Assembly: GCA_028277745.1 (NCBI GenBank)
Contig: JANQFR010000028.1
Coordinates: 1 to 41,850 of the forward strand
Length of the DNA: 41,850 nucleotides
Source: Phycisphaeraceae bacterium
Lineage (GTDB): Bacteria > Planctomycetota > Phycisphaerae > Phycisphaerales > Phycisphaeraceae
Direction: 5' to 3'
The notes under the pieces are model-generated. The model saw only the letters and a program-made list of their open reading frames with translations. It was not told the DNA's origin and searched no databases. Shown piece after piece: positions 4,449-25,623 of this stretch. How positions within the stretch are numbered: position 1 is the stretch's first letter; each line of letters begins with the position of its first letter. Position numbers and translations under genes: made by a program.

Positions 4449-6380
4449 TCACGGCTGCGCCGCGGCCGCTTCGGCGGCGGCGCCTTGATAGCCGTCGACC
4501 TCGGACGCCAGGTCGGCCCGCTGCCAGACGCGGATGTAGTCGATCACGAACTCATCAGGGAGTTGCGTGTCATCGAGCCGGCTGTTGTCCCAGCCGCCGG
4601 TCATCAGGTAGAAGATCGGGTAGGCCTCCACGTGCGAAACGCGGTCGTTCTCCCAACGCGCGACCTCTTTGCCGTTGCAGTAGTAGATCAGCGAGCCGGG
4701 CGTCCAGAGCAGGCCCGCGGTGATGAACCCGTCCTCATCGTGCTGGATGTAGATGTTCGTGCTGCCGGTGGACTTGTGGCGCTTGCCGTAGCCGTCCCAG
4801 TGCATCGCCACGTTGTAGCGATAAGGGCCCCAGCGGGTCAGGTGCTCCATGATGTCGAACTCCATGCCGCCCTTGCCGGTGTCGGCCCGCACCCACTGCG
4901 GCCCGACCTCCTCGCCGCGGTCGGGCATCATCCAGAACGCCGGCCAGAGCCCCGGCGCGGTGGCCAGCTTCATCCGCGCCTCGAAGTACCCGTACCGCTG
5001 CACCCACTTGCCGTAGGTATCGAGGAAGCCGACCGCGTAATCCGTCATTTTGCGCTGAGGGTTGTCGTTCTCGTAGCCGGTTTTCTTCTCCATGAGCAGA
5101 CGCACCATGCCGTCGCCGAGGATGACGTTGTCCTTGGTGAAGTGGCTGCGTTTGTCCCAGTAGTTCTCGGTGTAGATGTTCCAGCGGTTGAGGTCGATGT
5201 TCTCGCCATCGAACTCGTCCTGGAAGGTCAGGGTCCAGTCGCCTTCGACCGGCGGGCGCTGGCCGAGCCATTCGGGGGTCTGGATCGGGTCGGCGGTCGC
5301 CATGATCGCGTCGATGCGCACCGACGCGTCGCCCTCGTGCTTGACGACGACGACCACGGTGTCGGCCTTGTCGCTGGCGAACTTCGTGCCCGTGCCTTTT
5401 TGACCGGGCGCGTGCAGCTTGGTCACCGTACCGGTCTGGCCGCGCCACGGCTCGGCCGCCTCGAACAGCGCGACGACCTCCCCCGTCTCGCCCGGCGGGA
5501 TCGGGGCGTCGACGAACGCCGTACGCGTCGCGTGACGCTTATCGCTCATCACTCGCACGCCCGGGGTCACCGGCGTGTCGCCCGTGTTGGTCACCTTGAG
5601 CTTGACCTCGCTGGCGTTGCGCAGGTCCCACCGCCCGACCGCCGGTCGGAGGACCACCTCATGCGCCGCCTTGTTCGCCGGCAGCGACACCTGCAGCGCC
5701 TGTCGGCCCGCGTGATCGATCATCTCGGCGGCCGCCCCGTTTTTCGCGGTCACCTGCTTGGCCGCGTCGATCTTCACCGGGCCGCCGAACAGGTAGCCGT
5801 CCATCGGCTTCGTGCGGACCTGGTGCGGCTTGAGGCCCGGCTTCTCGCCGACCGGGCCCGCCGCCTGGATCGAGTCGATGCGAAACGACCGGGCGTGCTT
5901 GGTTTTCGTCGTAAACACCAGCAGCTTGTTGATCTTGCTCGGGTCGAGCTTGAAGCCGGGCTTCTGGCCGTGCTGGTAGCCGAAGATCACCTTGAGCGTG
6001 CGCGACTCGCCGGGCTTGAGGCGAATGCTCTCGGTGTTCCATGGCTTCTTGCGCCAGTCGCCAGGGTTGTCGACTCGCAGGCTCAGGCTGAACGCCTTGT
6101 CGCCCGTGTTGGTCACTTGCGCCTCGATGCGGCCGAAGCGCGACAGGTCCCACACCTGGCCGGCCGGCCGGATGAACAACCCCGGGTAGCTCTCCCCGCC
6201 CGGCCCGATGGTGACGTCCAGCCCCCCGTCGCGGATCGCGTAGGCCACCTGGTCGGACGTCGGCTCGAATTGGGCCTCGCCCGCCTCGGCGAAGTCGATC
6301 AACGGCTGGACGTCGTCGGCCAGGCCGGGGTTCGAAGCAGCGAGAAGCAACAGCACGGCAAGGGGCGTGAGGGTGCGCAT
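4449..6380 (-). CDS. secreted GH16-family glycoside hydrolase with two N-terminal beta domains
   Basis: The protein is 643 residues. It has a signal peptide (LAVLLLLAASNPGLA, cut near residue 21), two related beta-sandwich regions of carbohydrate-binding type (about 28-160 and 195-365, both with KVTNTGD/QVTNTGD segments), then a GH16 domain from about 380 to 625. The catalytic ExDxxE is EFDIME, with nucleophile E507, D509 and acid/base E512; LWPAFWMMP and WDN..LDDTQLP..FVIDYIRVWQ are also typical. GH16 enzymes cleave beta-1,3 or beta-1,4 bonds in polysaccharides such as laminarin, agar, carrageenan or porphyran; the substrate cannot be chosen here. The start is preceded by AAAGGA. Promoter and operator lie 78-120 bases upstream. 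Confidence 0.92.
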   Translation of the reverse strand: MRTLTPLAVLLLLAASNPGLADDVQPLIDFAEAGEAQFEPTSDQVAYAIRDGGLDVTIGPGGESYPGLFIRPAGQVWDLSRFGRIEAQVTNTGDKAFSLSLRVDNPGDWRKKPWNTESIRLKPGESRTLKVIFGYQHGQKPGFKLDPSKINKLLVFTTKTKHARSFRIDSIQAAGPVGEKPGLKPHQVRTKPMDGYLFGGPVKIDAAKQVTAKNGAAAEMIDHAGRQALQVSLPANKAAHEVVLRPAVGRWDLRNASEVKLKVTNTGDTPVTPGVRVMSDKRHATRTAFVDAPIPPGETGEVVALFEAAEPWRGQTGTVTKLHAPGQKGTGTKFASDKADTVVVVVKHEGDASVRIDAIMATADPIQTPEWLGQRPPVEGDWTLTFQDEFDGENIDLNRWNIYTENYWDKRSHFTKDNVILGDGMVRLLMEKKTGYENDNPQRKMTDYAVGFLDTYGKWVQRYGYFEARMKLATAPGLWPAFWMMPDRGEEVGPQWVRADTGKGGMEFDIMEHLTRWGPYRYNVAMHWDGYGKRHKSTGSTNIYIQHDEDGFITAGLLWTPGSLIYYCNGKEVARWENDRVSHVEAYPIFYLMTGGWDNSRLDDTQLPDEFVIDYIRVWQRADLASEVDGYQGAAAEAAAAQP

Positions 6381-6457
6381 GGTTCGGTTCGTTCCTTTGA
6401 TATGGCGCGGCGGGACACCGCCGGCGCAATCAGGTATGAATCAACAGGAATCCTTTA

Positions 6458-6471
6458 ACTAAACGTTTAGT
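6458..6471. promoter_or_regulatory. LacI-type palindromic operator of the GH16 gene
   Basis: actaaacgtttagt is a perfect 14-bp palindrome overlapping the -10 box of the minus-strand GH16 promoter. Its form resembles LacI-family sites, so repression relieved by a sugar ligand is likely. No LacI gene lies in the window. Confidence 0.65.
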
Positions 6472-6497
6472 ATCGCAATTTAAGCGGCTTTTGTCAA
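6469..6497 (-). promoter_or_regulatory. promoter of the GH16 gene
   Basis: Read on the minus strand, TTGACA (6497-6492) and GATACT (6474-6469) are spaced by 17 bases. This is a near-consensus sigma70-type promoter, giving a leader of about 80 bases. Confidence 0.7.
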
Positions 6498-6518
6498 GGG
6501 GTGCGCCGAGACGCCGGA

Positions 6519-6540
6519 GCTCCGCAAACCCTTGCGGGGC
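6519..6540. terminator. hairpin downstream of the UroD-family gene
   Basis: Arms gctccgcaa and ttgcggggc (one G-T pair) close a short loop just after the UroD-family stop codon. It resembles the other gene-end palindromes of this window. Confidence 0.45.
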
Positions 6541-6556
6541 CCCGATTCACGCCGGA

Positions 6557-7669
6557 TCAACACCGCAGCGGATACCGGGTGACCCTGTCGCGCACCGTCT
6601 TGATCCGCTGGGGCTCACAGATCGGAGGCATCACGCCCGAAGACGTCAGCACCAGGCCGCGATGATGCGGCAACTCGTCAAGCCAAGACTTGAGCTGGGC
6701 GATGATCGCGTCGGCGGGTTCGAGCCAGAGCATCGCGTGCGTGCCGCCGATGAGGCACTTGTCGGGGCAGGCGGTGCGCCCGTCGAACAGCGTGGTGTCG
6801 CCGAGCGTCGGGGCGGTGAACGCCTCGAAGCCGGCGGTGGGCATCCCGGCCAGCTGTGGGAGCAGCCGCTTGAGGTGTCCGCACATATGCAGGATCAGCC
6901 GCCCTCCGGCGTCGTGAACGATGCGGGCGTACTCGTCGATGTGCTCGGCGTTGAGGGTGCGGTACTGCTCAACGGACACCAGCGTGGTCGAGGTGTTCTC
7001 GGTGAGCCAGATGAAGTCGGCGGGGTGGTGCTCGGCCAGCAGCGTGATCTCTTCGCGGAGCACGCGGTGGACCTGCGCAAAAAGCACCCGGACGCGCTGC
7101 GGCTCGTCGGCCAGCAGGAGGTGGGCGGCTTCGATCCCCGCGAGCCATTCCACCCAATGCATCAACCCCGACTGCCTGACCGACACGGCGGTGACGGCGT
7201 CCTGCCCGACCTCCCGCACACGACTGCGGGCGCGGTGCAACGCCTGGTCGTCCAGCTCGACCCGGACATGTGCGAACCAGTCGGCCATCCGGTCGATGTC
7301 CTCAGCGGTCTTGACCGGGAAAGCGATCGGGTGCCACGACTTGGAATCGTTATCAAACGTGTTGACGCGGGTCAGCGCCCCGCCAGGTGTCGTGTAGACG
7401 TCGCGCCGCACGCCGTCTTCGACGTCCGACGCGAACCCGTATCCGGCGTCGTAGACCCGGCGCAGGCCGGGCGGGAGGTGTTCGATCGGGTCGCTGCCGA
7501 TCCACGCGTGGATCTCGCGCACCTCCATCTCACTAAACGGCGGCCGCTGCATCGGCGGGTACGCCCTGTTGAGTTTCGGCCAGAACGGCAAACGGTCAAC
7601 CGGCTTCAGGTCCAGAGCAGCGCACCATCGTTCGCGCGAAGTCATCGTATCGCTGATCGTTACCGTCAT
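6557..7669 (-). CDS. uroporphyrinogen-decarboxylase-family protein
   Basis: The protein is 370 residues with the TIM-barrel pattern of the UroD/MtaA/CmuA superfamily: TSRERWCAALDLKPVDRLPFWP at the start, then DFIWLTENTSTTLVS, GGRLILHMCGHLKRLLPQLAGM and GLVLTSSGVMPP. HMCG is the segment where methyltransferase members bind zinc through His/Cys. The haem enzyme's N-terminal substrate Arg pattern is not apparent, so a corrinoid-dependent methyltransferase or an unknown activity is more likely than HemE. It is on the same strand as the GH16 gene but separated from it by that gene's own promoter. The substrate is unknown. Confidence 0.8.
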   Translation of the reverse strand: MTVTISDTMTSRERWCAALDLKPVDRLPFWPKLNRAYPPMQRPPFSEMEVREIHAWIGSDPIEHLPPGLRRVYDAGYGFASDVEDGVRRDVYTTPGGALTRVNTFDNDSKSWHPIAFPVKTAEDIDRMADWFAHVRVELDDQALHRARSRVREVGQDAVTAVSVRQSGLMHWVEWLAGIEAAHLLLADEPQRVRVLFAQVHRVLREEITLLAEHHPADFIWLTENTSTTLVSVEQYRTLNAEHIDEYARIVHDAGGRLILHMCGHLKRLLPQLAGMPTAGFEAFTAPTLGDTTLFDGRTACPDKCLIGGTHAMLWLEPADAIIAQLKSWLDELPHHRGLVLTSSGVMPPICEPQRIKTVRDRVTRYPLRC

Positions 7670-8248
7670 GAGCCGGCTCCTCGGCCGAGAACATCGGCGG
7701 CTGCGCCCGTTACGTCGGAATCCGCGCCAGCCAGGAAAGAAGTATTTGTTCTCAACGGGAAAAGCAGTCCTCGGATTATGACGGGAAACAATCCATAATC
7801 CATAGCATGGCTAGCGAAAAACTTGTGCCAGACCGGTGATCACGACGACCGGCCTGACCCCGCCAACCTTTGCGGAGCTAAAGCGCACGGTGCTTAGGCG
7901 CCCACAACAACCAGTGCTGTCTTGCGCAAAAACCTATCGCTGTCTCGCCGACCACGCCGTTGTAGATCCAGACGTTGTTGTGATTGCACCGGTTGATCGC
8001 GGACGCGTCAGAGTGGGAGGAGTAGCTGTATAAATTTTCGGCACCGCGATGCAATCATTCATAGCCAAGGGGCGACGTGTTGAGGCAAGTCGACTAGCGG
8101 CCCCCTGCTCGATATACTTAACTTACCTCGATGAAACGGACTCGGTCGGCCCCGAAACAGACTGGCCCTCGGTCGATTTATCCGTCCCAAGAGTGTGATA
8201 GCGTAACTAGCCAATTATCTGTCCGCCATCAGATTACTTGAGGATTTT
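7670..8248. other. gene-poor stretch before the methyltransferase
   Basis: About 580 bases lie between the divergent UroD-family and methyltransferase genes. The first part is G+C-rich like the neighbours, and base composition falls towards 8100-8248. On the minus strand around 8025-7880 an open stretch without a start reads NHNNVWIYNGVVGETAIGF, which could be a gene remnant, but I recognise no family. The rest holds only upstream regions for the two genes; no RNA gene is seen. Confidence 0.35.
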
Positions 8249-8920
8249 ATGTTAAGTCGTAAAGCAAAAGCAGTATTCTATTATGCTGCGGGTCCACTGA
8301 TGCAGATCAATGGGCTAATATACAGACATTTCCGGGCGCCGAAAAAAGGTGAACTAAAAGTACATTTGGGGCCTGGGCAGAAAAACTACCTCGATGGGTG
8401 GGTAAACGTAGACGCCAACACTTTCACAGGAAAATGCGACGTATGGGCGGACTTGCGAAATCCGCTGCCGTTCCGCAATGAAACGGTTGATGCGATGTAC
8501 TCGCACCATGTGATAGAGCACCTTCCGAATATCGAACACCACTTTAAGGAAGCACATCGTTGTTTGAAACCCGGCGGGGTTTACCGCGTCGGTGGTCCGA
8601 ACGGAGATTCTGCTATTGCGAAATTCGTTGAAAACGACAAGCAATGGTTCGGAGATTTTCCAGACAAGCGGGATAGTATTGGCGGGCGATTTGAGAATTT
8701 CGTTTTTTGCAGGCAAGAACACCTGACAATACTCACTTATTCTTATCTTGAAGAAGTTATGGGAAAAGCCGGTTTTATTAACCTACAACAGTGCAAATGC
8801 GTAAAAGAAACAAACCATCCGGAATTTTTCCAAGAGTGCTTGAGTAAAGAGTCTGAGTCCGATTTTGACGTGCCGCATACCCTGATTGTTGAAGGTGCTA
8901 AACCGGCAAAGGGTGTCTGA
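8249..8920 (+). CDS. class I SAM-dependent methyltransferase, low G+C
   Basis: The protein is 223 residues. KVHLGPGQKNYLDGWVNVDAN (about 31-50) is the SAM-binding motif I region with an acidic residue after strand 2. LPFRNETVDAMYSHHVIEHLPN and CLKPGGVYRVGGPN complete the Methyltransf_11-like pattern often found in polysaccharide clusters. A ribosome site (TGAGGA) precedes the start. Base composition stands out: the stretch 8701-8760 has 21 G+C of 60, far below its neighbours, and codons are A/T-ending. It has no partner genes nearby, so it looks like a recent acquisition, perhaps from a surface-polysaccharide locus. Confidence 0.82.
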   Translation: MLSRKAKAVFYYAAGPLMQINGLIYRHFRAPKKGELKVHLGPGQKNYLDGWVNVDANTFTGKCDVWADLRNPLPFRNETVDAMYSHHVIEHLPNIEHHFKEAHRCLKPGGVYRVGGPNGDSAIAKFVENDKQWFGDFPDKRDSIGGRFENFVFCRQEHLTILTYSYLEEVMGKAGFINLQQCKCVKETNHPEFFQECLSKESESDFDVPHTLIVEGAKPAKGV

Positions 8921-9024
8921 CAAGGCGCTCAACCTAAATTCGCGCAATAGCGCCGTAACCGATCAACCTACCGCAATGTCCGCTCGCAAATACCGCCACG
9001 GCGCCCCACGCCTGACGCATACCG

Positions 9025-9228
9025 ATGCAGAGGGAAGGCAACCAGGCCGTGACACGCGTCATCTACGCCCTCCGCCTTACTTTCGGCCGGGCGCAAACCC
9101 ATAGGATCTACACCCAAGACGAGCGCCACGAACTGCCGCCCCGGCTCGCCGAGACCGACTGGGGCGGGGCGCTTAACGAATCGGTCGAGCGCCGGACCGT
9201 ACCCGACGAACCGACGCCATTAGAATAG
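9025..9228 (+). CDS. small hypothetical protein, uncertain
   Basis: A 67-residue frame in the 330-base gap between the methyltransferase and the C39-like gene. A GTG at 9049 (VTRVIYALRLTFGRAQ...) is another possible start, with AGGGAAGG upstream. The product is polar with no signal, membrane span or known domain. It is 23 bases before the next gene, and composition is that of the host. It may be real or chance; nothing else is seen in this gap. Confidence 0.3.
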   Translation: MQREGNQAVTRVIYALRLTFGRAQTHRIYTQDERHELPPRLAETDWGGALNESVERRTVPDEPTPLE

Positions 9229-9251
9229 ACTGAGCCAAACGGAGCCCAGCC

Positions 9252-10361
9252 ATGCGCAGCGTCATGATGATGGCGGTGATGATGATGCTTACCTCAGGAT
9301 GCGCCATGAGCGAAACCGCGAACCATGCGAATCCCCCTGAGGCGACGGGTTGGACGAGCCGGCTGTTCATGTACGCCGTGGGCCGGCCGGCGCCGGAAGC
9401 GGCGCCGATCGATGCACCGACGCGCGAGCGCGACGCGGCGAGGAGCCTTGAGACGTGGACGTTCCCCGCGAGCGGCCCGGGCGTGGCTTTCACCGAAGCG
9501 CTGGTGTCATGGAACATCGACAGCGAGCGCGCCGAAGCGGCGGTCGTTCAGCTGCGGGTCGGCCGGGCCGGCTTCTGGTCGCCGTGGCTGGTGGTCGGGA
9601 CGTGGGGCGGCGGCGTGTCAGGGGTCGACGTCGTGCGAGACTTCGACGGCCCGGACGCGGAGGGCCGGATCGACGTGGATTACTTCCGGTCGGACCGGCC
9701 GTTCGACCGCTGGCAGGCGCGCGTGATCGCCGCGCCGGCCGACGGGCGGTTCACGGAGCCGCCGGTCACGCGGATGACGGTCTGCCTGACGGGCGCGGCG
9801 GCCGCCGGTGCGGGAGCGGCGGCGCCTCCCGCCGAGCCGGTGCGGCTGGACGTGCCGTTCCGCAACCAGGAGACGGACGACCCTTCGCTGCTGGGCCGGC
9901 TGTGCAGCCCGGCGAGCGTGGCGATGGGGCTGGCGTATCACGGGATTTCATGCGAAACGCAGGACGTGGCGGAGCTGGCGTACGACGAGGCATTCGACCT
10001 GTACGGCAACTGGCCCCGCGCGGTGCAGACGGCCTATACGCTGGGAACGCCGGGCTACGTCACCCGTTTCAACAACTGGGCCGAGGTCGAGCGCGTCTTG
10101 CGCCGAGGCCTGCCGGTGATCGCCAGCATCGACGCCAAAGATGGCGAGCTCACCGACGCGCCCTACGCCACGACCAGCGGCGGGCACCTGATCGTGATCA
10201 CCGGTTGGGACGACGCAGGCGGCGTGTTCGTGAACGACCCGGCGGTGAGCGACGCGGCGGAAGGCCAACGCGTCTATCGCCGGGACGAACTGACCCGGGT
10301 CTGGCTGGAGCGGACGAAAGGGACGGCGTACGTGCTGCTCCCGCCGGCGGGCGACGGGTGA
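9252..10361 (+). CDS. C39-like (papain-fold) lipoprotein
   Basis: The protein is 369 residues. An N-terminal hydrophobic stretch ends in a lipobox LTSGC (Cys 17), so the mature protein is probably membrane-anchored. A beta-rich region (about 60-185) precedes a C39-like peptidase domain starting at LDVPFRNQ. Its likely catalytic residues are C218 (LCSPASVAM), H312 (GGHLIVITGW) and D329 (VNDPAV). Bacteriocin-processing C39 domains belong to ABC exporters, but stand-alone secreted forms like this are of unknown substrate. It ends 36 bases before thyA and may share its transcript. Confidence 0.82.
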   Translation: MRSVMMMAVMMMLTSGCAMSETANHANPPEATGWTSRLFMYAVGRPAPEAAPIDAPTRERDAARSLETWTFPASGPGVAFTEALVSWNIDSERAEAAVVQLRVGRAGFWSPWLVVGTWGGGVSGVDVVRDFDGPDAEGRIDVDYFRSDRPFDRWQARVIAAPADGRFTEPPVTRMTVCLTGAAAAGAGAAAPPAEPVRLDVPFRNQETDDPSLLGRLCSPASVAMGLAYHGISCETQDVAELAYDEAFDLYGNWPRAVQTAYTLGTPGYVTRFNNWAEVERVLRRGLPVIASIDAKDGELTDAPYATTSGGHLIVITGWDDAGGVFVNDPAVSDAAEGQRVYRRDELTRVWLERTKGTAYVLLPPAGDG

Positions 10362-10397
10362 CCGGCCCGCGTTCAAGCGGTGTGATAAAATCAGACC

Positions 10398-11192
10398 ATG
10401 CAGACCTACCTGGACCTGATGCGTCACGTGCTCGAGCACGGGACCGACAAGAGCGACCGCACCGGCACCGGCACGCGGTCGGTGTTCGGCTACCAGATGC
10501 GGTTCGACCTGGCGGACGGCTTCCCGCTGCTGACCACCAAGAAGCTGCACCTGCGCTCGATCATCCACGAGCTGCTGTGGTTTCTCCGCGGCGACACCAA
10601 CGTCGCCTACCTCCACGAGCACGGCGTGACGATCTGGGACGAGTGGGCCGACGAAGACGGCGACCTGGGCCCGGTGTACGGCTACCAGTGGCGGCACTAC
10701 CCCAAGCCCGGCGGGGGCGAGGTCGATCAGATCAGGCAGGTCGTCGACGCAATCCGCCGCGACCCCGACTCGCGGCGGCACCTCGTGTGCGCCTGGAACC
10801 CGGGCATGGTTGACGACATGGCCCTGCCGCCCTGCCACGCGATGTTCCAGTTCTATGTCGCCGACGGACACTTGAGCTGCCAGTTGTACCAGCGCTCGGC
10901 CGACATCTTCCTGGGCGTGCCGTTCAATATCGCGTCGTATGCGCTGCTCACGATGATGATCGCCCAGGCGACCGGCCTGAAGCCCGGCGAATTCATCCAC
11001 ACGTTCGGCGACGCCCACCTCTACAGCAACCACTTCGAGCAGGCCCGGGAGCAATTGACGCGGACGCCGCGCCCGTTGCCGACGATGACGCTCAACCCCG
11101 CAGTGACCGACCTGTTCGCGTTCACCTACGACGACTTCACGCTCAGCGGCTACGATCCGCACCCGGCGATCAAGGCGCAGGTGGCGGTCTGA
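10398..11192 (+). CDS. thyA: thymidylate synthase
   Basis: The protein is 264 residues, the same length as E. coli ThyA. It contains the folate-binding start [29 protein letters not shown] region, the catalytic C146 in [27 protein letters not shown] and HIYSNH-like DAHLYSNH. The enzyme makes dTMP from dUMP with methylene-tetrahydrofolate and yields dihydrofolate. Its stop codon shares one base with the folA start (TGATG), so the two are translationally coupled and the dihydrofolate is recycled by the next enzyme. Confidence 0.97.
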
Positions 11193-11680
11193 TGTGGCTT
11201 TCGCTGATCTACGCCCGGTCGGAGAACCGCGTGATCGGGAAGGACGGCGGGCTGCCCTGGCGGCTGCCGGATGATTTCAGGCATTTCAAAACCACGACGA
11301 TGGGCTGCCCGGTCGTGATGGGCCGCCGGACGTTCGAGGACCACCAGAGCGTGTTGCCGGGGCGGACCAACATCGTGCTGACGCGCGACCCGGACTGGTC
11401 GTTCGAGGGAGTGACGGTGTGTCGCAGCCTGGACGACGCGCTGACGCCCTACCGTGGGACGGACCGGGAGGTGTTCGTGATCGGCGGCGCGGGCCTCTTC
11501 GCGGCGGCCCTGCCGCAGGCCGATCGGGTGTACGAGACGGTGGTGCACGCGGTGGTGGACGGCGACGTGAGGCTGCCGGACTTCGACCTGAGCCGGTTCG
11601 AGCCGGAGGTGCTGATGGAGCACGCCGTTGATGACCGGCATCCTTATGCGTTTACGGTCACGCGATACGATCGACGATGA
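11192..11680 (+). CDS. folA: dihydrofolate reductase
   Basis: The protein is 162 residues. LIYARSENRVIGKDGGLPWRLPDDFRHFK carries the substrate-binding Met20-loop type region and the acidic D in LPDD; VVMGRRTFED and FVIGGAGLFAAAL are the NADPH-binding segments, and YETVVHA follows near the end. It reduces dihydrofolate to tetrahydrofolate with NADPH. It overlaps thyA by one base and is closed by a perfect palindrome. Confidence 0.96.
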   Translation: MWLSLIYARSENRVIGKDGGLPWRLPDDFRHFKTTTMGCPVVMGRRTFEDHQSVLPGRTNIVLTRDPDWSFEGVTVCRSLDDALTPYRGTDREVFVIGGAGLFAAALPQADRVYETVVHAVVDGDVRLPDFDLSRFEPEVLMEHAVDDRHPYAFTVTRYDRR

Positions 11681-18915: not shown

Positions 18916-18943
18916 TTGCATCGGCAAAGGCCGGTGTTACAAT
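18916..18943 (+). promoter_or_regulatory. sigma70-like promoter of the Ro / Y RNA / ubiquitin-like operon
   Basis: TTGCAT (18916-18921) and TACAAT (18938-18943) are spaced by 16 bases in an A+T-rich patch after GH130. Transcription would begin near 18950, about 535 bases before the first solid gene of the operon, leaving a long structured leader that contains Y RNA 1. Confidence 0.6.
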
Positions 18944-18959
18944 CCGCATCCTTCATTGT

Positions 18960-19330
18960 GGCCGGTTGGTTTTCTCTCAGAAAGATGAAACAAACCGGCG
19001 CTCTGAACGTTTGATTTGATGCAAAGGACCATGAACGTGTTCGTCAGACTGTCACAACCTGGAGCCTCGATGGTGTCGAAAGACGGTGGCCTGTCAGGGC
19101 TGTGGCCTGCCGACGCCCATCACGGCGAGGCGTGTGGCTTAATTAGCCCCGCGCATCAACGACCGCTGACCAGTTCTTGACCCGACTCGGGTCGAGGCGC
19201 TGGCCGGCGGAAAGCCGGACCGGCGCCAACCGGAAACACAACCTGGCGCTGATCCGGCTTTCCGACCGGGAGTTGGTTCTCGGAAGAGGCTTTTCAGCCG
19301 GCCGCACCCAGTGCGTTCGGTTGAATAGGA
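18960..19330 (+). promoter_or_regulatory. long structured leader of the operon
   Basis: Several stems are visible. A 12-pair helix near 18961-18999 (gccggttggttt with aaacaaaccggc, one mismatch) is followed by gacccg/cgggtc at about 19180 and a 13-pair hairpin near 19195-19228 (ggcgctggccggc with gccggaccggcgcc, one bulged A, loop ggaaa). A longer pairing joins ccaac..cggaaa with tttccg..gttgg (about 19229-19279). It may be a regulatory leader or a further RNA. It also holds the 49-codon ORF listed separately. Confidence 0.4.
19031..19180 (+). CDS. 49-residue ORF in the operon leader, uncertain
   Basis: An ORF of 49 codons begins MNVFVRLSQPGASMVSKDGG five bases after AAAGGA and stops just before the gacccg/cgggtc hairpin. 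The product has no signal or known domain; its C-terminal half is His/Ala/Gly-rich. It could be a leader peptide or a small protein of the system, or be chance within a structured RNA. Confidence 0.3.
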   Translation: MNVFVRLSQPGASMVSKDGGLSGLWPADAHHGEACGLISPAHQRPLTSS

Positions 19331-19339
19331 TCTTGTATC

Positions 19340-19410
19340 CGCACCCAACGACAAGAGCTTACAAACCGGTCCAAAAAGGACGTTTGAAAACCGCTCCTGC
19401 GACTTGTGCG
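19340..19410 (+). ncRNA. Y RNA 1 (short, hairpin type)
   Basis: Outer arms cgcac (19340-19344) and gtgcg (19406-19410) pair. Inside lie the 5' strand ccaacgacaagagcttac and the 3' strand ctgcgacttgt, both shared with Y RNA 3 (ctacgacgaaagcttac and ggcgacttgt). gagc/gctc form an inner stem. The head is a plain hairpin: caaac/gtttg and gtcc/ggac around an AAAAA loop. There is no tRNA-like module and no T-tract. It lies upstream of the 74-residue gene. Assignment as a Ro-binding Y RNA comes from the shared stem and the neighbouring Ro gene. Confidence 0.65.
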
Positions 19411-19485
19411 AAACCCAACGAATTGAAGGAAAAACACCTGGCTCGCCATGAGAACACGGCAAGCCGCTGACCAAGGAGACCCGTC

Positions 19486-19710
19486 ATGGCCGACGTCATC
19501 GAAAACCCGGTGCTGCACATCCGCTTCGACGGCCGCAGCCTCGACATCCTGCTGGCGGACCTCGACGTCGGCGCCCTGTCGGCCGACCGCGAGGTCAAGC
19601 AGGCCGTCGCGGCGTACCTCGACGTGGCGGTCGACAAGTTCCGCCACTACGTCGTGGACCGACACAACACCGGCAACCTGACCATCCGGCCGGAGGCCGT
19701 GTTCGGTTGA
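19486..19710 (+). CDS. small beta-grasp-like protein, candidate ubiquitin-like modifier
   Basis: The product has 74 residues, with AAGGAG eight bases before the ATG. Predicted layout is two strands (VLHIRFDG, RSLDILLADLD), one long helix (DREVKQAVAAYLDVAVDKFRHYVV) and a last strand NLTIRPEAVFG. This beta-beta-alpha-beta order and the terminal Gly fit a ubiquitin-like modifier, similar in size and layout to the small proteins coded beside E1 and JAB genes in PRTRC-type cassettes. The tail has one Gly, not GG, so it would not need trimming. The assignment is inference from layout and from the E1 and JAMM genes of the same operon. Confidence 0.6.
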   Translation: MADVIENPVLHIRFDGRSLDILLADLDVGALSADREVKQAVAAYLDVAVDKFRHYVVDRHNTGNLTIRPEAVFG

Positions 19711-19728
19711 CCCTGTAACCGTTTAACC

Positions 19729-19848
19729 GCGCGCCCGTATCCAAGCGCAGAAGCATACAAACACGCTCATGGAGAGCATCACAATCCTACTGTGACCTCG
19801 GGTTCGAATCCCGTTACAACACCGCTTCTGGAACTCATACGGGCCCGC
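19729..19848 (+). ncRNA. Y RNA 2 with tRNA-like module in normal order
   Basis: Outer stem cccgtat (19734) / atacggg (19837) extends by four pairs with one mismatch; inner stem cagaagc (19748) / gcttctg (19824). Between them comes agc.tacaaac, shared by all three RNAs, then a D-like arm gctc-atgga-gagc (19765-19777), one A, an anticodon-like arm tcaca-atcctac-tgtga (19779-19795, T33 and CCT in place) and a T arm cggg-ttcgaat-cccg (19799-19813). There is no acceptor stem; the Ro-type stem takes its place. The variable region is only 3 bases. It lies between the 74-residue gene and the Ro gene. This is not a functional tRNA. Confidence 0.7.
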
Positions 19849-19914
19849 TTTAAAATCTCGAACGACCGAGGGAGTCGGTTCGCCTCCCGCGCATGAAGCG
19901 GCTGGGGGTCGGCT

Positions 19915-19965
19915 TAGCCGGGCCGCTACGCGGCCCTGGCCCAGGCGGGCGTAGCCCGCCGGCTA
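19915..19965. repeat. 51-bp three-arm palindromic repeat, copy 2
   Basis: Same architecture as copy 1 at 719-769: tagcc, hairpin gggccgc/gcggccc, linker tggccca, hairpin ggcgggc/gcccgcc, ggcta. It has inserted, or persists, between Y RNA 2 and Y RNA 3 inside the operon, where it could separate or process the transcripts. Confidence 0.75.
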
Positions 19966-20035
19966 AGACAAGAAAGAGATCGACTGAAGGCTGATCTGCT
20001 CTAATGGGGCTTAACCGGAGACCAGACGTTTTACC

Positions 20036-20190
20036 ATCCCGTACCCTACGACGAAAGCTTACAAACAAGGTTCATAGGCCCGGAGGTTGTGGGTTCGAGT
20101 CCCACCGGCCGCATTGATTAATACTGCGGCCGTAGCTCAACGGCAGAGCGCCGTAAGTTTCCCGCTTTGGCGACTTGTACGGGATTTTTT
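20036..20190 (+). ncRNA. Y RNA 3 (YrlA-type) with circularly permuted tRNA-like module
   Basis: The outer stem atcccgtac (20036-20044) / gtacgggat (20177-20185) is perfect and runs into six T. Next come the Ro-type strands ctacgacg and ggcgactt, then an 8-bp stem aagcttac / gtaagttt. The head is a tRNA cut open at the anticodon and joined at its ends: T arm gtggg-ttcgagt-cccac (20089-20105), an 8-bp acceptor stem cggccgca / tgcggccg closed by an 11-base loop, TA as at tRNA positions 8-9, and D arm gctc-aacggca-gagc (20135-20149). This is the YrlA layout known beside bacterial Ro genes. Its end lies 70 bases before the Ro start codon. Confidence 0.8.
20177..20190 (+). terminator. T-tract terminator formed by the outer stem of Y RNA 3
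   Basis: The 3' arm gtacgggat of the outer stem is followed by a T run (20185-20190), so the same helix that should carry the Ro site also works as an intrinsic terminator ahead of the Ro gene. Confidence 0.65.
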
Positions 20191-20260
20191 AAAACACCAA
20201 GCGCCTCCCGTCGCGACGACGCGGCGGGCGTTGCTGAAGACCCTTTTCCAGGGGACCGCC

Positions 20261-21820
20261 ATGACCACGAATGAACAAGACCAGAGACTGGCCATCCTCA
20301 ACACGCTGCTGACCACGCCCCACCGCCGGCTGGACCTCATCTGGCCGGTCCACCGCGAGATGGTCGAGCAGGACCCGCTGTTCTACGTCCGTCTGGCGGC
20401 GTGGTATCACGACCATGGCGACGTGCGCGACCACAAGGAGATGTTCATCGTCACCCTGCTGCTGAGCGACTTCGAGGGCCACCGCGACGTCGGCCTGGCC
20501 CTGCTGCGCGGCATGCCGCCTTACGAGGTGGCGCGGGTGATCGACTTCATCCACGGCCGCAAGACCACCCGCACCGTCCGCGTCTCGGACAAGGCCAAAC
20601 GGCAACGCGCCGCGCGGGCCAAGATCGGGACCGGCAAGGGCGATGACCGCGCCGAGACGAAAACCGTGGTCGAGGAGTTCGGCCTGTTCCGCAACGTGCC
20701 GCGCTCGGCGAAGACCGAGGTCGAGCGGTATCTGCGTGAGCGCGAGGCCGACGCGGACTGGTTCGACTCCACCGTGCTGACCGCGCGCAAGGCGGTCAAA
20801 CGGCTGTACGCGCTGCTGCACATCCGCCCCGGCGACCGGGCCCAGCGGATCCTGTTCGAGAAGGACCCGCCGCCCGACAGCCGGCTGCATGCGCTGCGCG
20901 AGCTGGCGCGGGCGTCGAGCCCGACGGACCAGGCCCGCGCGATCGTGGAGCACAACGTGCCCTACCGCGTCGCCGCGACGGTGATCCGCAAGTTCACGCC
21001 GACCGTGCTGCTGGCCCTGGTCGAGCAGATGAGCCCGCAGGAGCTGATCAACAACCTCGGCTCGCTGAAACGTCGCGGCGCGTTCGACAACGTGGACATC
21101 CGCGCCGCGATCGAGGCCAAGCTCGACGAGGCCAAGCGGTCGCAGCGCGTCAGCGCGTTCAAGGCCGAGGAGGCCATCAAGGCCGCCGGCGTGTCGGACG
21201 ACCTCCGCGAGAAGTTGGAGGAGGTGGCCGACGCGCAGATCAAGGCCAAGGGCAGGATCACCCGGCCGACGGCGCTGCTGGTCGACAAGAGCGCGTCGAT
21301 GGAGCCGGCGATCGATTTGGGCAAGCGGATCGGCGCGATGGTGTCGGCGGTCTGCGAGGCGGACCTGTTCGTGTACGCGTTCGACACGATGGCGTACCCG
21401 GTCAAGCCGGCCGGGCCGGACCTGCCCGACTGGGAGCGCGCCTTCGCCGGGATCAAGGCCGGCGGCGCGACCTCGTGCGGCGTGCCGCTGACCTACATGA
21501 TCAAGCAGCGGCAGTACGTCGAGCAGATCGTGATGGTCACCGACGAAGGCGAGAACAATCAGCCCTCCTTTGTGGTCGAGCTGAAAAATTACCGCGAGGC
21601 GCTCAACGCCGACCCGGGCGTGTGCATCGTGCGCACCCCCGATTCGTGGCAACGCGTCGAGCGGCAGTGCCGGGAGGAAGGGTTCGCGGTCGACGTGTTC
21701 CAGTTCACCGGCGACTACTACTCGCTGCCGAACCTCGTGCCGATGCTCAGCCGCCCGTCGAAGCTCGAGCTGCTGATGGACATCATGAGCTACACGCTGC
21801 CCGAGAGACGAAGCGCCTGA
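20261..21820 (+). CDS. Ro60-family TROVE/vWA RNA-binding protein
   Basis: From the ATG at 20261 (AGGGGA seven bases upstream) the protein is 519 residues; a longer frame would start inside Y RNA 3. The first ~330 residues are helical HEAT-like repeats of TROVE type (MPPYEVARVIDFIHGRK, NNLGSLKRRGAFDN). The rest is a vWA domain with a complete MIDAS: D342-K-S344-A-S346, T404 and D428. Ro60/Rsr forms a ring that binds Y RNAs on the outside and misfolded or 3'-ended RNAs in its hole, and in bacteria works with nucleases in rRNA maturation and RNA decay under stress. The three Y RNAs upstream fit this role. A Lys/Arg-rich insert covers about 108-135. Confidence 0.85.
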   Translation: MTTNEQDQRLAILNTLLTTPHRRLDLIWPVHREMVEQDPLFYVRLAAWYHDHGDVRDHKEMFIVTLLLSDFEGHRDVGLALLRGMPPYEVARVIDFIHGRKTTRTVRVSDKAKRQRAARAKIGTGKGDDRAETKTVVEEFGLFRNVPRSAKTEVERYLREREADADWFDSTVLTARKAVKRLYALLHIRPGDRAQRILFEKDPPPDSRLHALRELARASSPTDQARAIVEHNVPYRVAATVIRKFTPTVLLALVEQMSPQELINNLGSLKRRGAFDNVDIRAAIEAKLDEAKRSQRVSAFKAEEAIKAAGVSDDLREKLEEVADAQIKAKGRITRPTALLVDKSASMEPAIDLGKRIGAMVSAVCEADLFVYAFDTMAYPVKPAGPDLPDWERAFAGIKAGGATSCGVPLTYMIKQRQYVEQIVMVTDEGENNQPSFVVELKNYREALNADPGVCIVRTPDSWQRVERQCREEGFAVDVFQFTGDYYSLPNLVPMLSRPSKLELLMDIMSYTLPERRSA

Positions 21821-21905
21821 GCCCGGCCCGCCCGGCCACGGCCGACGCCCGCCGGGGCTTTATTCTGACTGACGCCAACCCAACCCCTTTCCGGAGGACG
21901 CACCG

Positions 21906-23555
21906 ATGGCCAAGCTCATCCTCAAACGTGAGATCCTGAAGACCGCGGCGACCCGCGCCAACCTCAGCGACGCCGGGGGGACCGAACTGCGCCACCGCAT
22001 CGAGGCCGGCAAGGGGCCGATGTCCCTGCGCCTCGAAGAGCTGCCGATGGCCCTGCTCTACACCCTGCTGGACGACTGCCGGCTCACCCCGAATGAACGG
22101 GCGGTCATCGCCATGCGCGTCTTCGGGGTGGCTGACAGTGCGCGGAACGACGCCGACCGCATCCTCGGCATGAGCGTCTCGAACCCGGTCGAGTTCGGGT
22201 CGGCGTTCGGCATGCTCAACGATCGCTCGCCCAACTGCGAGTTCTTCCTCAACGGACGCTGGTACCCGATCGTCCTCCGCCCGCACTTCGAGAAGAGCCT
22301 TGAGAACCACGTCACCCAGGCCGTGGCGCTCAACGCGGCGCTATCGATTGCGGACATCACCGATCACCTGAGCTATTACGTGTTTCCGGACCTGTTTCTG
22401 GACAGCGCGGGGAACCCGGTCTCCCGCACCGTGCTGGAGGTTCTTCAACAGTTCAACCTCCGCCGCTTCGAGACCTCCTCCGGCGAGTACAACCTCCGCC
22501 TGATCCGCGCCGAGCGGGCGTCCCGCGAGACGGGCGCCGTCGTCTCGGTCAAGGGCCCGGTCGTGTGGCGCCCCGCCCAAAACTGGTGGCCGAGGCTGGA
22601 GTCGCGCGCGCTGGGCGCCCCCACGCAACCCCGGCGGTGCGTCGTGGAGCCCGAACTGGAAGTCGACGAGAACCGCCGCGGCTACTTCGGGCCGCACGCC
22701 CACAACGAGAACGGGCTCTCCCGCCTGCCTTTCGTGAGGTTGTTCAGCCTCGACATCAAGAGCTACGTCTACGCCGACATCGACGATATCGAGCCCTGCG
22801 CGTTCGATCACGAAGCGCTCGACCGGCTGCAGCTGCCTACGCAGATGCTCGGCGTGCTCACAAAGGTCTTCAACACGTCGATGGACGGGTTGTTCGGCGA
22901 TCTGATCGCGAACAAGCACGGCGGGGTCGTGGTTCTGGCGTGGGGCAATCCGGGCGTCGGCAAGACGCTCACCGCGGAGGTCTACGCCGAACACACCCAG
23001 CGGCCGTTGTACGTGCTCGAGCTCGGCGAGCTGGGCACCCACGTCGGCGAGGTGGAGGAGAAGCTGCAGCGGGTCTTCACGCGCGTGGCCCGGTGGAACG
23101 CCGTGCTCCAGTTCGACGAGTGCGAGGTGTTCCTCGCCCGACGCGGCGACGACCTGGAGCGATCGGCCATCGTGGGCGGTTTCCTGCGGCTGCTCGACTA
23201 CTACCACGGCATCCTGTTCCTCACCACGAACCGGCCGGAAGTGCTCGACCACGCCGTCCTCAGCCGCGTCATGCTCAAGCTGCATTACCCCGACCTCGAC
23301 CGCGACGCGCGGGCGGCGATCTGGCGCACCATGTTCGACGCCGCCGGGCTTACCCTCACCGACGCCTCCTTCGCCGAACTCGCCGAAGAACAGGTCAACG
23401 GCCGAAACATCCGCAACCTGACCCGGCTGACCAAGATCCTCCACCCCGACGGCATGGTCACCCTCGAACAGGTCCGCGCCGTGACGGCCTTCGCCGGGAC
23501 GTCCGATGCCGCATGGGCCACGCCGGACGAAGCGGCGGAGCGGGTCGGCGTGTAA
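21906..23555 (+). CDS. AAA+ ATPase with large unique N-terminal region
   Basis: The protein is 549 residues; GGAGGA lies seven bases before the ATG. Residues 1-330 are unlike any domain I know. The AAA module has Walker A GNPGVGKT (G347-T354), Walker B VLQFDE (D404, E405), sensor-1 LTTNRPE and an arginine finger region LSRVMLKLHYPDLD, closing with a helical lid (NGRNIRNLTRL). This is the FtsH/ATAD-like classical clade, so it probably forms a hexamer that remodels or unfolds a target. It follows the Ro gene by 85 bases with a weak hairpin between. In the operon it is the likely motor acting on Ro particles or modified proteins (inference). Confidence 0.85.
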   Translation: MAKLILKREILKTAATRANLSDAGGTELRHRIEAGKGPMSLRLEELPMALLYTLLDDCRLTPNERAVIAMRVFGVADSARNDADRILGMSVSNPVEFGSAFGMLNDRSPNCEFFLNGRWYPIVLRPHFEKSLENHVTQAVALNAALSIADITDHLSYYVFPDLFLDSAGNPVSRTVLEVLQQFNLRRFETSSGEYNLRLIRAERASRETGAVVSVKGPVVWRPAQNWWPRLESRALGAPTQPRRCVVEPELEVDENRRGYFGPHAHNENGLSRLPFVRLFSLDIKSYVYADIDDIEPCAFDHEALDRLQLPTQMLGVLTKVFNTSMDGLFGDLIANKHGGVVVLAWGNPGVGKTLTAEVYAEHTQRPLYVLELGELGTHVGEVEEKLQRVFTRVARWNAVLQFDECEVFLARRGDDLERSAIVGGFLRLLDYYHGILFLTTNRPEVLDHAVLSRVMLKLHYPDLDRDARAAIWRTMFDAAGLTLTDASFAELAEEQVNGRNIRNLTRLTKILHPDGMVTLEQVRAVTAFAGTSDAAWATPDEAAERVGV

Positions 23556-23655
23556 CCTGTCAGCCTTTAGCGCTCTCCGCCGGAAACCCGACAATACGTC
23601 GCGCCGGCCCACTGACAACGTCTGATTCCAGTGCCCGCCGCATCAGGTCCCAGCC

Positions 23656-24609
23656 ATGCCTTCCAAGCGATTCCAGAACGCGTTCGATCGGCTCGCCCGG
23701 GCGGAGGAGCGGTTCCTCAAGAGCGAGTTCCTCGCGCCGGCCGTGGGCGGGGGCGTGGTGCGCGTGCGCATCGCGGGCGTGCCGTGCGAGCTGCGCATCC
23801 GACCTCCGCGGTTCACGGGTTGGGGCATGTTCCGGCCGATCTCGCACGACGAAGCCGAGCTGATCCGCCAGGCCGGCCTGGCGGACCGTCAAAGCTACCT
23901 GAAGTTGTTTCCGCTTGTCAGGCTCGTGCTGTGTCGGCGTGACGAAGCCGGCACATGGCGGGGGCTGGCGGCGCACCGCGACGGCCAACCGTTCCATATC
24001 CAGGGTCTTGTCCCGATCCGCCTGGCGGATGAAGCCGAGCAGTTCGAAACCATCCGGGCCCGTTTCGACGGCGGGAACTTCTGGTTCGAAGGCGCCGACG
24101 CACGCAGCGACCCGGCGGCGGCGCGTTACCTGCGCGAATCGTTGATTCAACGCACACCCGTCGATGAACTGCAACGCGGAGGCCTCAGCCCCGAGCAGCG
24201 CGCCGCGTACGCCGTACATTTCATCGAACCGAAAACCAGCCGAAAAAAAGACGACGGCGGGCCGCCGGCTCCCCATCCTCCTACGACCGAGCAACGGCTG
24301 CGCGAAGCCCTCGCGCACGCCGGCGCCGAACTGAAGGATTTTACGGAGCGCCGCGACGGCTACCGCGTCAGCTACACCATCGGCGGCCGCCGGCATACCT
24401 CATCCGTCAGCAAAGAGGACATGTCCGTCCAGGTCGCCGGCATCTGCCTCAGCGGGGAGGACGAGAACTTCGATCTCAAGAGCCTGATCGGCGTCATCCG
24501 CGAGGCCGAGGGGGCCGGTGAAATCGTGCGGATCGGCGAAGATGAATACATGCCCGAGGAACAGTATTGGCAAATCCACCCCCGTCCACGAAGAAGACGA
24601 CGAAGGTAA
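23656..24609 (+). CDS. unknown protein of the operon, Arg-rich tail
   Basis: The protein is 317 residues and I recognise no family. Two parts are seen. The N-terminal part (1-205) is alpha/beta with conserved-looking VCELRIRPPRFTGWGMF-like and FPLVRLVLCRRD segments; C44 and a Cys near 94 lie in it. A Pro/Lys linker follows. The C-terminal domain (about 215-305) has DGYRVSYTIGGRRHTSSVS and VAGICLSGEDENFDLKSL. It ends in a run of Arg, fit for nucleic-acid contact. Its 3' end overlaps the JAMM gene by 43 bases, so it belongs to the unit. It could be the conjugation partner (E2-like) or the target; neither is shown. Confidence 0.7.
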   Translation: MPSKRFQNAFDRLARAEERFLKSEFLAPAVGGGVVRVRIAGVPCELRIRPPRFTGWGMFRPISHDEAELIRQAGLADRQSYLKLFPLVRLVLCRRDEAGTWRGLAAHRDGQPFHIQGLVPIRLADEAEQFETIRARFDGGNFWFEGADARSDPAAARYLRESLIQRTPVDELQRGGLSPEQRAAYAVHFIEPKTSRKKDDGGPPAPHPPTTEQRLREALAHAGAELKDFTERRDGYRVSYTIGGRRHTSSVSKEDMSVQVAGICLSGEDENFDLKSLIGVIREAEGAGEIVRIGEDEYMPEEQYWQIHPRPRRRRRR

Positions 24610-24989
24610 GCCCCGCCGATGAAGAATGCTGGGTGCTGCTCGGCCAGCGACGCGGGCGGGTGTGGCGCGCGCGGCGGACGTCGTACGCCATCGGCCAGCC
24701 GCACGCCGTCGAATTCGACGCCGCCGCCGTCCTCGAACGCGAAGAGCAACGCGGCGATGTCGTCGGGTTCTACCACACCCACCCCGTCAGCGACGCCTGC
24801 CCCAGCCAACGAGACGTCAAGACCATGCGGGTCTGGGTCGGCTCATTCGGCAAGCCGCTGCTCTGCCTGATTGAAGGGGCCGACCGGCTCGCCGCTTACC
24901 GCTTCGATCATGACCAGTGCAACGGCAAGCGCCTCATGCTTGTCGAACGGTTCCCCCGCAATCGGATTATTGGAGTCGACGATGCCTGA
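24567..24989 (+). CDS. JAMM/MPN (JAB) metalloprotease
   Basis: The protein is 140 residues with a TTG start preceded by GAGGA at six bases. The zinc motif is complete: E19 or E20 near the start, then H70-T-H72-P with S80 and D83 (HTHP, seven residues, S, two residues, D). The family cleaves isopeptide or peptide bonds after ubiquitin-like proteins and also acts in sulphur-carrier processing. With an E1-like gene overlapping it by eight bases, removal of the 74-residue modifier is the natural role. Since that modifier already ends in Gly, deconjugation is more likely than maturation. Confidence 0.85.
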   Translation: MANPPPSTKKTTKVSPADEECWVLLGQRRGRVWRARRTSYAIGQPHAVEFDAAAVLEREEQRGDVVGFYHTHPVSDACPSQRDVKTMRVWVGSFGKPLLCLIEGADRLAAYRFDHDQCNGKRLMLVERFPRNRIIGVDDA

Positions 24990-25623
24990 CAAACTGCACC
25001 ACGAACGGCTGTACCGCGGCACGGACAAACTGGCCGGGCTGGCCGATGTCAACGTCGTCGTCTGCGGGGCCGGCGCGCTCGGCTCCAACATCGTTGACGG
25101 CCTCAGCCGCCAGGGCTTTCACCAGCTGCGCGTGATCGACAACGACCGGGTCGAAGAGCACAACGTCAGCACCCAGGTCTACGGCGAGGGCGATGTCGGC
25201 GCCCTCAAGGTCGACGCCCTGCGCAACAAGGTGTTCCGGGCGGTAAGCGTCGAACTGCAGACCGAATCGAAGCGGCTCGACGACCGCAACGCCAAACGCC
25301 TGCTGCGTAAAGCCGGCTTGGTGATCGACGCCTTCGACAACTCCGCCTCGCGCCAGGCCGTGCAGACCGCCTGCCGCGTCGAGGGGTTGCCCTGCCTCCA
25401 CGCCGGCATGTACGAAGACTACGGCGAAGTCGTCTGGGACCCGGCCTACCGCGTCCCGCAGGACGTCGGAGAAGATCTGTGCGATTACCCCCTGGCCCGA
25501 AACCTCGCGATGCTGACCGCAACGGTCGCCTGCGAAACCACCGTCCGTCATCTGCTGCACGGCGCGGATGAATCATGGTCGATCACGCTCCGCGACCTCG
25601 CCATCCGACCGTTGGAGCGCTGA
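24982..25623 (+). CDS. short ThiF/E1-like activating enzyme
   Basis: From the ATG at 24982 (TGGAG seven bases upstream) the protein is 213 residues; it overlaps the JAMM gene by eight bases. VNVVVCGAGALGSNIVDGLSRQG is the nucleotide-binding GxGxxG, RVIDNDRVEEHNVSTQ holds the acidic and Asn residues, with Thr where most E1s have Arg before Gln, and GALKVDALR gives the lysine. VIDAFDNSASR follows, and C167 in EDLCDYP is at the place of the catalytic Cys. It would adenylate the Gly end of the small modifier. The adenylation domain is nearly all there is; no ubiquitin-fold or separate Cys domain exists. Confidence 0.85.
   Translation: MPDKLHHERLYRGTDKLAGLADVNVVVCGAGALGSNIVDGLSRQGFHQLRVIDNDRVEEHNVSTQVYGEGDVGALKVDALRNKVFRAVSVELQTESKRLDDRNAKRLLRKAGLVIDAFDNSASRQAVQTACRVEGLPCLHAGMYEDYGEVVWDPAYRVPQDVGEDLCDYPLARNLAMLTATVACETTVRHLLHGADESWSITLRDLAIRPLER

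Follow-up and report, generated by a model that had tools for sequence, protein, structure and literature searches.

A conserved bacterial cassette joining a Ro-like protein and Y-RNA candidates with tRNA-like modules to a predicted ubiquitin-like modification gene set

The operon and its genes

The DNA analyzed here, called the window throughout, is a stretch of 41,850 nucleotides from a Phycisphaeraceae bacterium (contig JANQFR010000028.1 of GenBank assembly GCA_028277745.1), in which one operon brings together a Ro-like protein, three Y RNAs and the genes of a predicted ubiquitin-like modification set. Six genes lie on one strand between positions 19486 and 25623, encoding in order a ubiquitin-like protein (UBL), the Ro-like protein, an AAA+ ATPase, a partner protein, a JAMM protease and an E1-like enzyme, with Y RNA 1 placed 5' of the UBL gene and Y RNAs 2 and 3 sitting between the UBL and Ro-like genes. 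An earlier note, made from the letters of this DNA without database searches, had assigned the genes these same places, all of which were confirmed. The JAMM start falls inside the end of the partner gene and the E1 start inside the end of the JAMM gene, giving the overlaps that the note had seen among the last three genes (43 and 8 nt, provided that JAMM starts at TTG). The features are the following:

19336 to 19415, + strand: Y RNA 1, a short RNA of the Ro stem type whose 34-nt insert lacks tRNA arms (head repeat, fold z -3.8, paired tail)
19486 to 19710, + strand: 74-aa UBL with C-terminal AVFG (152 homologues)
19731 to 19850, + strand: Y RNA 2, a linear tRNA mimic (minimum-energy fold z -3.5, hairpin call)
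20035 to 20190, + strand: Y RNA 3, a permuted tRNA mimic within a Ro-type stem (YrlA match, tRNA call on the doubled insert, acceptor with 7/7 pairs)
20261 to 21820, + strand: Ro60-like protein of 519 aa with a vWA/MIDAS domain, ATG at 20261 (profile match to Ro60 chains)
21906 to 23555, + strand: AAA+ ATPase, a lineage-specific passenger and not a core member (Pfam AAA, 6e-16)
23656 to 24609, + strand: partner protein of unknown family, 317 aa, a core member with predicted OB-like domains
24567 to 24989, + strand: JAMM/MPN+ metalloprotease, TTG start at 24567 (Prok-JAB, 8e-10)
24982 to 25623, + strand: E1/ThiF-like adenylating enzyme of 214 aa, ATG at 24982, invariant Cys168 (ThiF, 2e-27)

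Conservation of the cassette across genomes

The window operon is an instance of a conserved cassette with a recurrent gene set and order, conserved active-site motifs and Y-RNA candidates that carry permuted and linear tRNA modules. A profile of the partner protein yielded 21 named loci, whose reading frames were then searched with gene profiles, and the Ro-like protein was found in 16 of the 21, E1 in 15, UBL in at least 11 and JAMM in 7. The UBL count is a lower bound because the contigs of L032, L034, L035 and L037 start within Ro or no more than 30 nt from it. Record titles of the loci name Planctomycetota, Cyanobacteria/Melainabacteria, Abditibacterium, Sandaracinus and Thermoflexales, and the order UBL-Ro-partner-(JAMM)-E1 recurs in the Planctomycetota-type records, Abditibacterium, Sandaracinus and two loci titled only "bacterium" (L042 and L045). 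Even a very divergent gene set, that of L061, keeps the order Ro-partner-JAMM-E1. In L040 and L051, both Cyanobacteria/Melainabacteria records, the Ro gene follows E1 at a distance of some 3 kb. Ro, UBL, E1 and, in part, JAMM thus co-occur across phyla, which bears out the joint conservation that the earlier note had set beforehand as decisive for its proposal.

Ro and the partner protein form the most constant gene pair of the cassette. Five loci show no Ro in the fetched stretch, namely L049 (partner, JAMM and E1), L050 (UBL, partner and E1), L052 (at a contig end), and L043 (Bacteroidia) and L044 (Prochloron), where the partner stands without Ro, UBL or E1; a Y-RNA-like head precedes the partner gene of L043. 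Within the window's own phylum the partner protein occurs in 5 of 392 genomes, adjoined by Ro and E1 in all five, and Ro profile matches occur in 20 of the 392, comprising six strong ones (E < 1e-200), 13 weak partial ones and one short form (G214, 4e-58) in which the middle part is missing. In this phylum the cassette thus has a sparse and scattered distribution, which is what one would expect a mobile system to show. An all-against-all comparison of 28 cassette stretches, in search of further families present in at least three, returned only frames that overlap core genes by their printed coordinates, and no RtcB relative was found in the same 28 stretches.

tRNA mimicry among the Y-RNA candidates

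The three Y RNAs that had been read from the window are backed by a 28-nt repeat (at 19339, 19735 and 20039), by stable folds (z-scores of -3.8, -3.5 and -3.3 for Y RNAs 1, 2 and 3, no shuffle being as stable as Y RNA 1) and by a match to the Rfam YrlA model (RF02553) at 20081-20157, with an E-value of 2.6e-6 and 37.8 bits, below the 69-bit gathering cut-off. Their shared head reads roughly CCGnRnCCnACGnCnnnAGCnTACAAAC and pairs with the tail, ACTTGnRCGG or a variant of it. The fold of Y RNA 2 comprises a D-arm, a 5-bp arm with the 7-nt loop AUCCUAC (triplet CCU) and a T-arm, the Ro-type stem taking the place of the acceptor stem. Y RNA 3 runs in the order T-arm, acceptor 3' half, loop, acceptor 5' half and D-arm, and the YrlA model aligns to it in the same T-acceptor-D order; ARAGORN calls a tRNA in it solely when the insert is doubled, and its acceptor pairs at 7/7 positions, while its minimum-energy fold leaves the T-arm unformed.

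Searching 26 cassette loci for the head motif followed by a tail that pairs with it, and dropping one nested candidate in L046, we obtained 49 Y-RNA candidates in 16 loci, 11 of which hold two or more and one (L039) ten, in keeping with the earlier view that Y RNAs belong to the set. A tRNA T-arm motif is present in 27 of the 49 inserts, and 15 of these 27 are permuted, with the D-arm after the T-arm, and have 15 different acceptor arms. Since two tRNA genes side by side can look like a permuted module, the acceptor halves of these 15 were compared with their own and with each other's counterparts, equal offsets being allowed to both. Own halves pair at 6-7 of 7 positions in 14/15 inserts and at all seven in 13/15, against 30/210 and 4/210 for the crossed combinations. 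When 11 of the 15 permuted RNAs were aligned, 15 of 28 predicted pairs showed two-sided changes, and seven of those pairs belong to the T, acceptor and D stems; head-tail pairing is partly built into this alignment by the motif search, and the T, acceptor and D pairs are independent of the motif.

ARAGORN calls a tRNA in 14 of the 49 inserts when they are doubled, in none of the 49 undoubled and in none of 980 doubled shuffles. An anticodon-type hairpin is found in 15/49 inserts, compared with a mean of 1.46 and a maximum of 6 in 300 shuffles; its triplets include GUU, GUA, GUG, CAU, GAG, CUU, UAG and CCU, among them those of Asn, Tyr, His, Met, Lys, Leu and Arg tRNAs. Two linear inserts from five loci scanned (L039:5863-5921 and L051:3956-4018) score above the tRNA-family cut-off with most of the acceptor missing. 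The combination typical of YrlA, a closing stem with a permuted T-arm/acceptor/D-arm module, is confined to the permuted subset (15/49), and the RF02553 matches in L039 reach 37.8 and 34.7 bits, below 69. The Y-RNA candidates accordingly include tRNA mimics of two kinds, permuted and linear.

Two single candidates deserve mention in their own right. The one at L045:8103-8182 is read by ARAGORN as tRNA-Leu (UAG), a case in which a linear mimic and a real tRNA gene are indistinguishable, and this call, coinciding with a Y-RNA candidate, was left out of the tRNA gene count. The insert of L039:6357-6500 has a 16-nt exact match to Escherichia coli 23S rRNA (zero-based position 1918), the longest such match in 980 shuffles being 14 nt and our own chance estimate about 0.007 over the 49 inserts; BLAST in E. 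coli genomes and Rfam returned nothing for it. On this sequence likeness, the insert may be an rRNA mimic.

Beside the cassette, arrays of tRNA genes lie in two records, Phycisphaerales and Phycisphaerae, with 18 genes in L036 (4505-6330) and 29 in L038 (186-5887), on the same strand and immediately upstream of the UBL gene, in a common order where they share genes. All 20 amino acids are represented in the L038 array; since that genome has a total of 76 tRNA matches, the array is probably supernumerary. A few tRNA genes also occur near the cassette in L041 and L042, and the window has one, at 30139, about 4.5 kb away. A passage of PMC12803027 discusses mycobacterial tRNA arrays as a putative anti-defence measure.

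The Ro-like protein and its partner

By its profile matches, the Ro of the window is a divergent Ro60 relative. A profile of 15 Ro relatives matches the Ro60 chain 9nen over positions 202-446 (E 2.8e-5) and 1yvp over the vWA part only (8.8e-4), and the single sequence matches the TROVE chains 9l5y/9kop at no better than 0.007. The protein has no Pfam TROVE match at E<=1, and its vWA_Ro60 score of 21.3 bits lies below the 27.7 cut-off, which is why we call it Ro-like. The description of a TROVE/vWA protein with a complete MIDAS therefore stands for the MIDAS, whose DxSxS, T and D residues are invariant across the 15 rows, and for the relation to Ro60, but not for a TROVE domain recognizable to Pfam.

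The partner protein gave no Foldseek match at E<=0.001, VIA Z values were <= 6.1, and no E2 fold is listed among its fold matches; its conserved AGICLSG block has a pLDDT below 50 in the model. The Arg tail that the earlier note described is present in the window protein, and as a conserved feature it was rejected, the tails of the relatives not being conserved. A short Y RNA stands just before the partner match in six loci (L032:1406-1503, L033:9887-9971, L034:1722-1820, L035:1181-1267, L036:9847-9961 and L039:9894-9994), and two of these six have an anticodon-type hairpin, UAG in L034 and GUG in L036.

The UBL, the E1 and the JAMM protease

The UBL ends in -V[FY]G in 12/12 cassette rows and, in a wider alignment (A2), in VFG in 27 of 28 rows. 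The remaining homologue, P0131, extends eight residues past the Gly and could be a precursor for JAMM trimming. The beta-grasp likeness claimed for this 74-residue protein is supported by structure prediction in part: the AF2 model (pLDDT 84.6) has the strand-strand-helix-strand-strand order of a predicted ubiquitin-type beta-grasp, whereas its fold matches are weak. No NCBIfam model matches the UBL.

Both enzymes of the set have conserved motifs, among them the complete zinc motif that the earlier note had recognized in JAMM. In JAMM, whose desampylase match (2e-11) is below that model's cut-off, none of the 8 rows departs from the HTHP..PSxRD zinc motif or lacks the candidate upstream Glu residues. 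In E1, whose PRTRC_ThiF match (2e-13) is likewise below cut-off, all 15 rows share GxGAxG, the D/R/N/K set and Cys168, and the Ser after GxGAxG is nearly invariant. The MIDAS, JAMM and E1 motifs are thus conserved and therefore reflect more than chance. Among 29 proteins scanned there was no E2 domain and no rhodanese or tRNA-thiolase family.

The AAA+ ATPase and the surroundings of the operon

The earlier note had counted the AAA+ ATPase as a member of the operon's system, a place that it loses here. As a query it matches 158 of 294 genomes of the phylum; among the matches listed, only G242 (1 of the 293 other genomes) has a near full-length relative, and the remaining 156 matching genomes share the ATPase domain only. 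Profile searches found neither a partner-protein match nor a Ro match in G242, and the AAA profile has no match in any other cassette locus. The ATPase was rejected as a core member on these grounds. In L033, an unrelated AAA ATPase (8373-9884) fills the gap between Ro and partner that holds the AAA gene in the window, and this gap may be a variable slot.

Upstream, the operon is flanked by a glycoside hydrolase family 130 gene and, downstream, by a gene on the opposite strand whose product weakly matches PEP-CTERM, followed by an IclR-type regulator. The single promoter described earlier could not be confirmed: a consensus scan of the + strand returned no sigma-70-like promoter, and TACAAT at 18938 is no more than suggestive.

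Elsewhere in the window's genome (G000), contig C88 carries a textbook Ro operon:

L112 (G000:C88:20001-38000), approximately 5106-11489: RtcR, a TROVE-positive Rsr, three YrlA matches (one above the cut-off) and RtcB

The cassette is thus a second Ro system of this genome and, with the canonical operon present, not a drifted copy of its sole Ro system.

Proposed mechanism and alternatives

The reading to which we give most weight, though tentatively, is that the conserved cassette likely forms a Ro ribonucleoprotein (RNP) that displays tRNA mimics as a decoy or tripwire for tRNA-cutting enzymes, its state being set by a tagging reaction that is free of E2 and reversible by JAMM; with the cassette, damage to the cell's tRNAs would likely be sensed or blunted. 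Co-occurrence of the genes across loci, the tRNA modules of the Y-RNA candidates and the tRNA arrays beside two cassettes speak for it. We infer that Ro would hold each Y RNA through the conserved head/tail stem with the tRNA module facing outwards, and the partner, with its predicted OB-like domains, would bind the Y RNA or the tRNA module. E1 would activate the UBL at its terminal -FG/-YG and transfer it without an E2 to Ro or the partner, from which JAMM, where present, would take it off again. An anticodon nuclease that bound or cut the displayed modules would alter the particle, and the tag would lock or reset it. A bolder form of the decoy and tripwire proposal, which we regard as rather unlikely in its entirety, is a mobile bacterial immune RNP whose single Ro ring bears a whole library of Y RNAs, each counterfeiting a different tRNA, and perhaps rRNA, as tripwires, with cutting reported by E2-free tagging and, in some lineages, a complete spare set of tRNAs alongside to restore translation. 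A related thought is in print, since one statement in PMC7790460 proposes that the tRNA-like domain of YrlA might inhibit an anticodon nuclease competitively.

A number of observations weigh against this decoy and tripwire reading. The motif search found no Y-RNA candidate in 10 of the 26 loci (L037, L041, L042, L043, L044, L047, L049, L052, L058 and L061), and some of these are short contigs, but L041, L042 and L047 have long flanks. No T-arm motif is present in 22/49 inserts, and only 3/15 permuted inserts have the 5-bp anticodon hairpin. On the protein side, JAMM is absent from most loci, the fold matches of the UBL and of the partner are weak, the UBL ends in one Gly, not Gly-Gly, and L047 and L048 have Ro and partner without UBL or E1. 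Two of the genomes with a strong Ro match, G044 and G134, have a weak partner match only, and their contigs, of which that of G044 ends about 300 nt further on, hold neither UBL nor E1. Tagging is therefore not always needed by Ro and the partner. In the one Salmonella case that PMC7790460 mentions as tested, YrlA was left uncut by the anticodon nuclease.

Ordinary YrlA adds to these objections, for the permuted tRNA module is already its design. As a control we took 16 canonical YrlA sequences from related genomes, of which 6 were evaluable and 10 failed the head/tail pattern; of the ten, L093, L095 and L098 look like real YrlA and seven weaker ones like neighbouring tRNA-gene pairs. This control is weak, since its six sequences were trimmed with a crude pattern and two of them still contain tail bases. 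The doubled tRNA call appears in 2/6 of them, the 5-bp anticodon hairpin in 0/6 (a small control) versus 15/49 inserts, and the 4-bp hairpin in 1/6 versus 21/49, so that with six controls the hairpin excess is suggestive and not secure. The clear differences from ordinary YrlA are the variety within one locus and the linear form. Adjacent tRNA genes can also mimic permuted YrlA in the weak RF02553 hits L099, L101, L102, L104, L105, L107 and L108, which calls for caution in Y-RNA surveys generally.

The main rival keeps the particle and makes the mimics handles for an RNA enzyme: the tRNA modules would bring an enzyme that binds tRNA, or RNA in the S1/OB manner, to the Ro ring, just as YrlA recruits PNPase in RYPER, with tagging regulating or turning over the decay machine. 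We give this explanation considerable weight while leaning against it. Binding of PNPase is the known role of the YrlA tRNA-like domain, as far as the account in PMC8394870 goes, and Ro and the partner are the most constant pair. Many rows of the partner's fold search are OB/TRAM-type domains (RlmCD, the Mpa inter-domain, IF-1 and RNase R), weak matches that would suit docking, though this resemblance may reflect no more than a widespread arrangement. The 28 stretches compared share no additional recurrent gene family, however, and a single docking partner needs neither 15 different acceptor arms nor varied anticodon-type loops. A further alternative is a sulfur-carrier role, in which E1 would put a thiocarboxylate on the UBL, by ThiS/Urm1 chemistry, for the thiolation of tRNA or of the Y RNAs. 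An E1 closest to ThiF models, the lack of an E2 domain in the 29 proteins and tRNA modules carried by the RNAs all agree with such a role, but JAMM in 7/21 loci, a UBL terminus of -FG/-YG instead of -GG and the lack of rhodanese and tRNA-thiolase families in the same scan make it improbable.

We consider it very improbable that, along the lines of the earlier note, the tagging controls the AAA+ ATPase as executor of an anti-phage response. The AAA domain does resemble IetA defence ATPases (5.6e-16, and 1.1e-11 with the NCBIfam model), but the gene was not found in the other cassette loci, the sole near full-length relative among the matches listed comes from a genome with neither a partner nor a Ro match, and no IetS-type protease stands beside it in the window. 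An equally slight chance attaches to mere neighbourhood, with UBL/E1/JAMM and Ro/Y RNA as separate systems at a shared locus: L047 and L048, with Ro and partner alone, L049, with partner, JAMM and E1 and no Ro in the fetched stretch, and the distance of about 3 kb to Ro in L040 and L051 would suit it, but the interleaved UBL-Ro-partner-(JAMM)-E1 order recurs across phyla with short spacers and overlaps.

If the decoy and tripwire reading is true, the cassette would be, to our knowledge, the first bacterial Ro/Y-RNA particle tied to ubiquitin-like chemistry. It would suggest why Y RNAs resemble tRNAs, one genome showing several different counterfeit tRNAs, and the purpose of bacterial Y RNAs would become directly testable because each mimic names a candidate partner or attacker.

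Comparison with known systems

An incomplete search of the open-licence literature found no paper joining Ro/TROVE with UBL conjugation, and a prior description is possible. The cassette shares with the SAMP/Urm1/desampylase systems a small predicted beta-grasp modifier, a ThiF-type E1, a desampylase-related JAMM and the lack of an identified E2; SAMP and Urm1 end in -GG, whereas the cassette UBL ends in -FG/-YG and is tied to a Ro RNP. Type II CBASS, Bil and their relatives are bacterial conjugation defence operons, to which the cassette is linked by E1 and JAB domains that match the PADLOC E1-E2 and JAB models; unlike them it has a stand-alone 214-aa E1, no identified E2 domain, no CD-NTase in the window operon, and Ro and Y RNAs instead. 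PRTRC cassettes likewise combine a ThiF-type E1 and a JAB protein with a small UBL, and the E1 here has its sub-cut-off PRTRC_ThiF match, but the UBL here belongs to another family, without an NCBIfam match, and Ro and Y RNAs replace the plasmid-type set. The likeness to IetAS is confined to the AAA domain of the accessory ATPase, which scores 44.6 bits against an NCBIfam cut-off of 510 and so falls outside IetA; its N-terminus of about 330 aa lies outside the model, and the next gene encodes the partner protein, not IetS, which the window operon lacks.

Also among the closest known systems is the RtcR-Rsr-YrlA-RtcB operon, where a protein of the Ro60 type is likewise accompanied by several Y RNAs that contain a permuted tRNA-like module. 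In contrast to it, the cassette has a Ro without a Pfam TROVE match, another head/tail sequence in its Y RNAs and no RtcB relative in the 28 stretches, and it adds the partner, UBL, E1 and JAMM. New here are Y-RNA candidates whose inserts copy different tRNAs, a set more varied than that of the canonical operon and including linear and anticodon-bearing forms.

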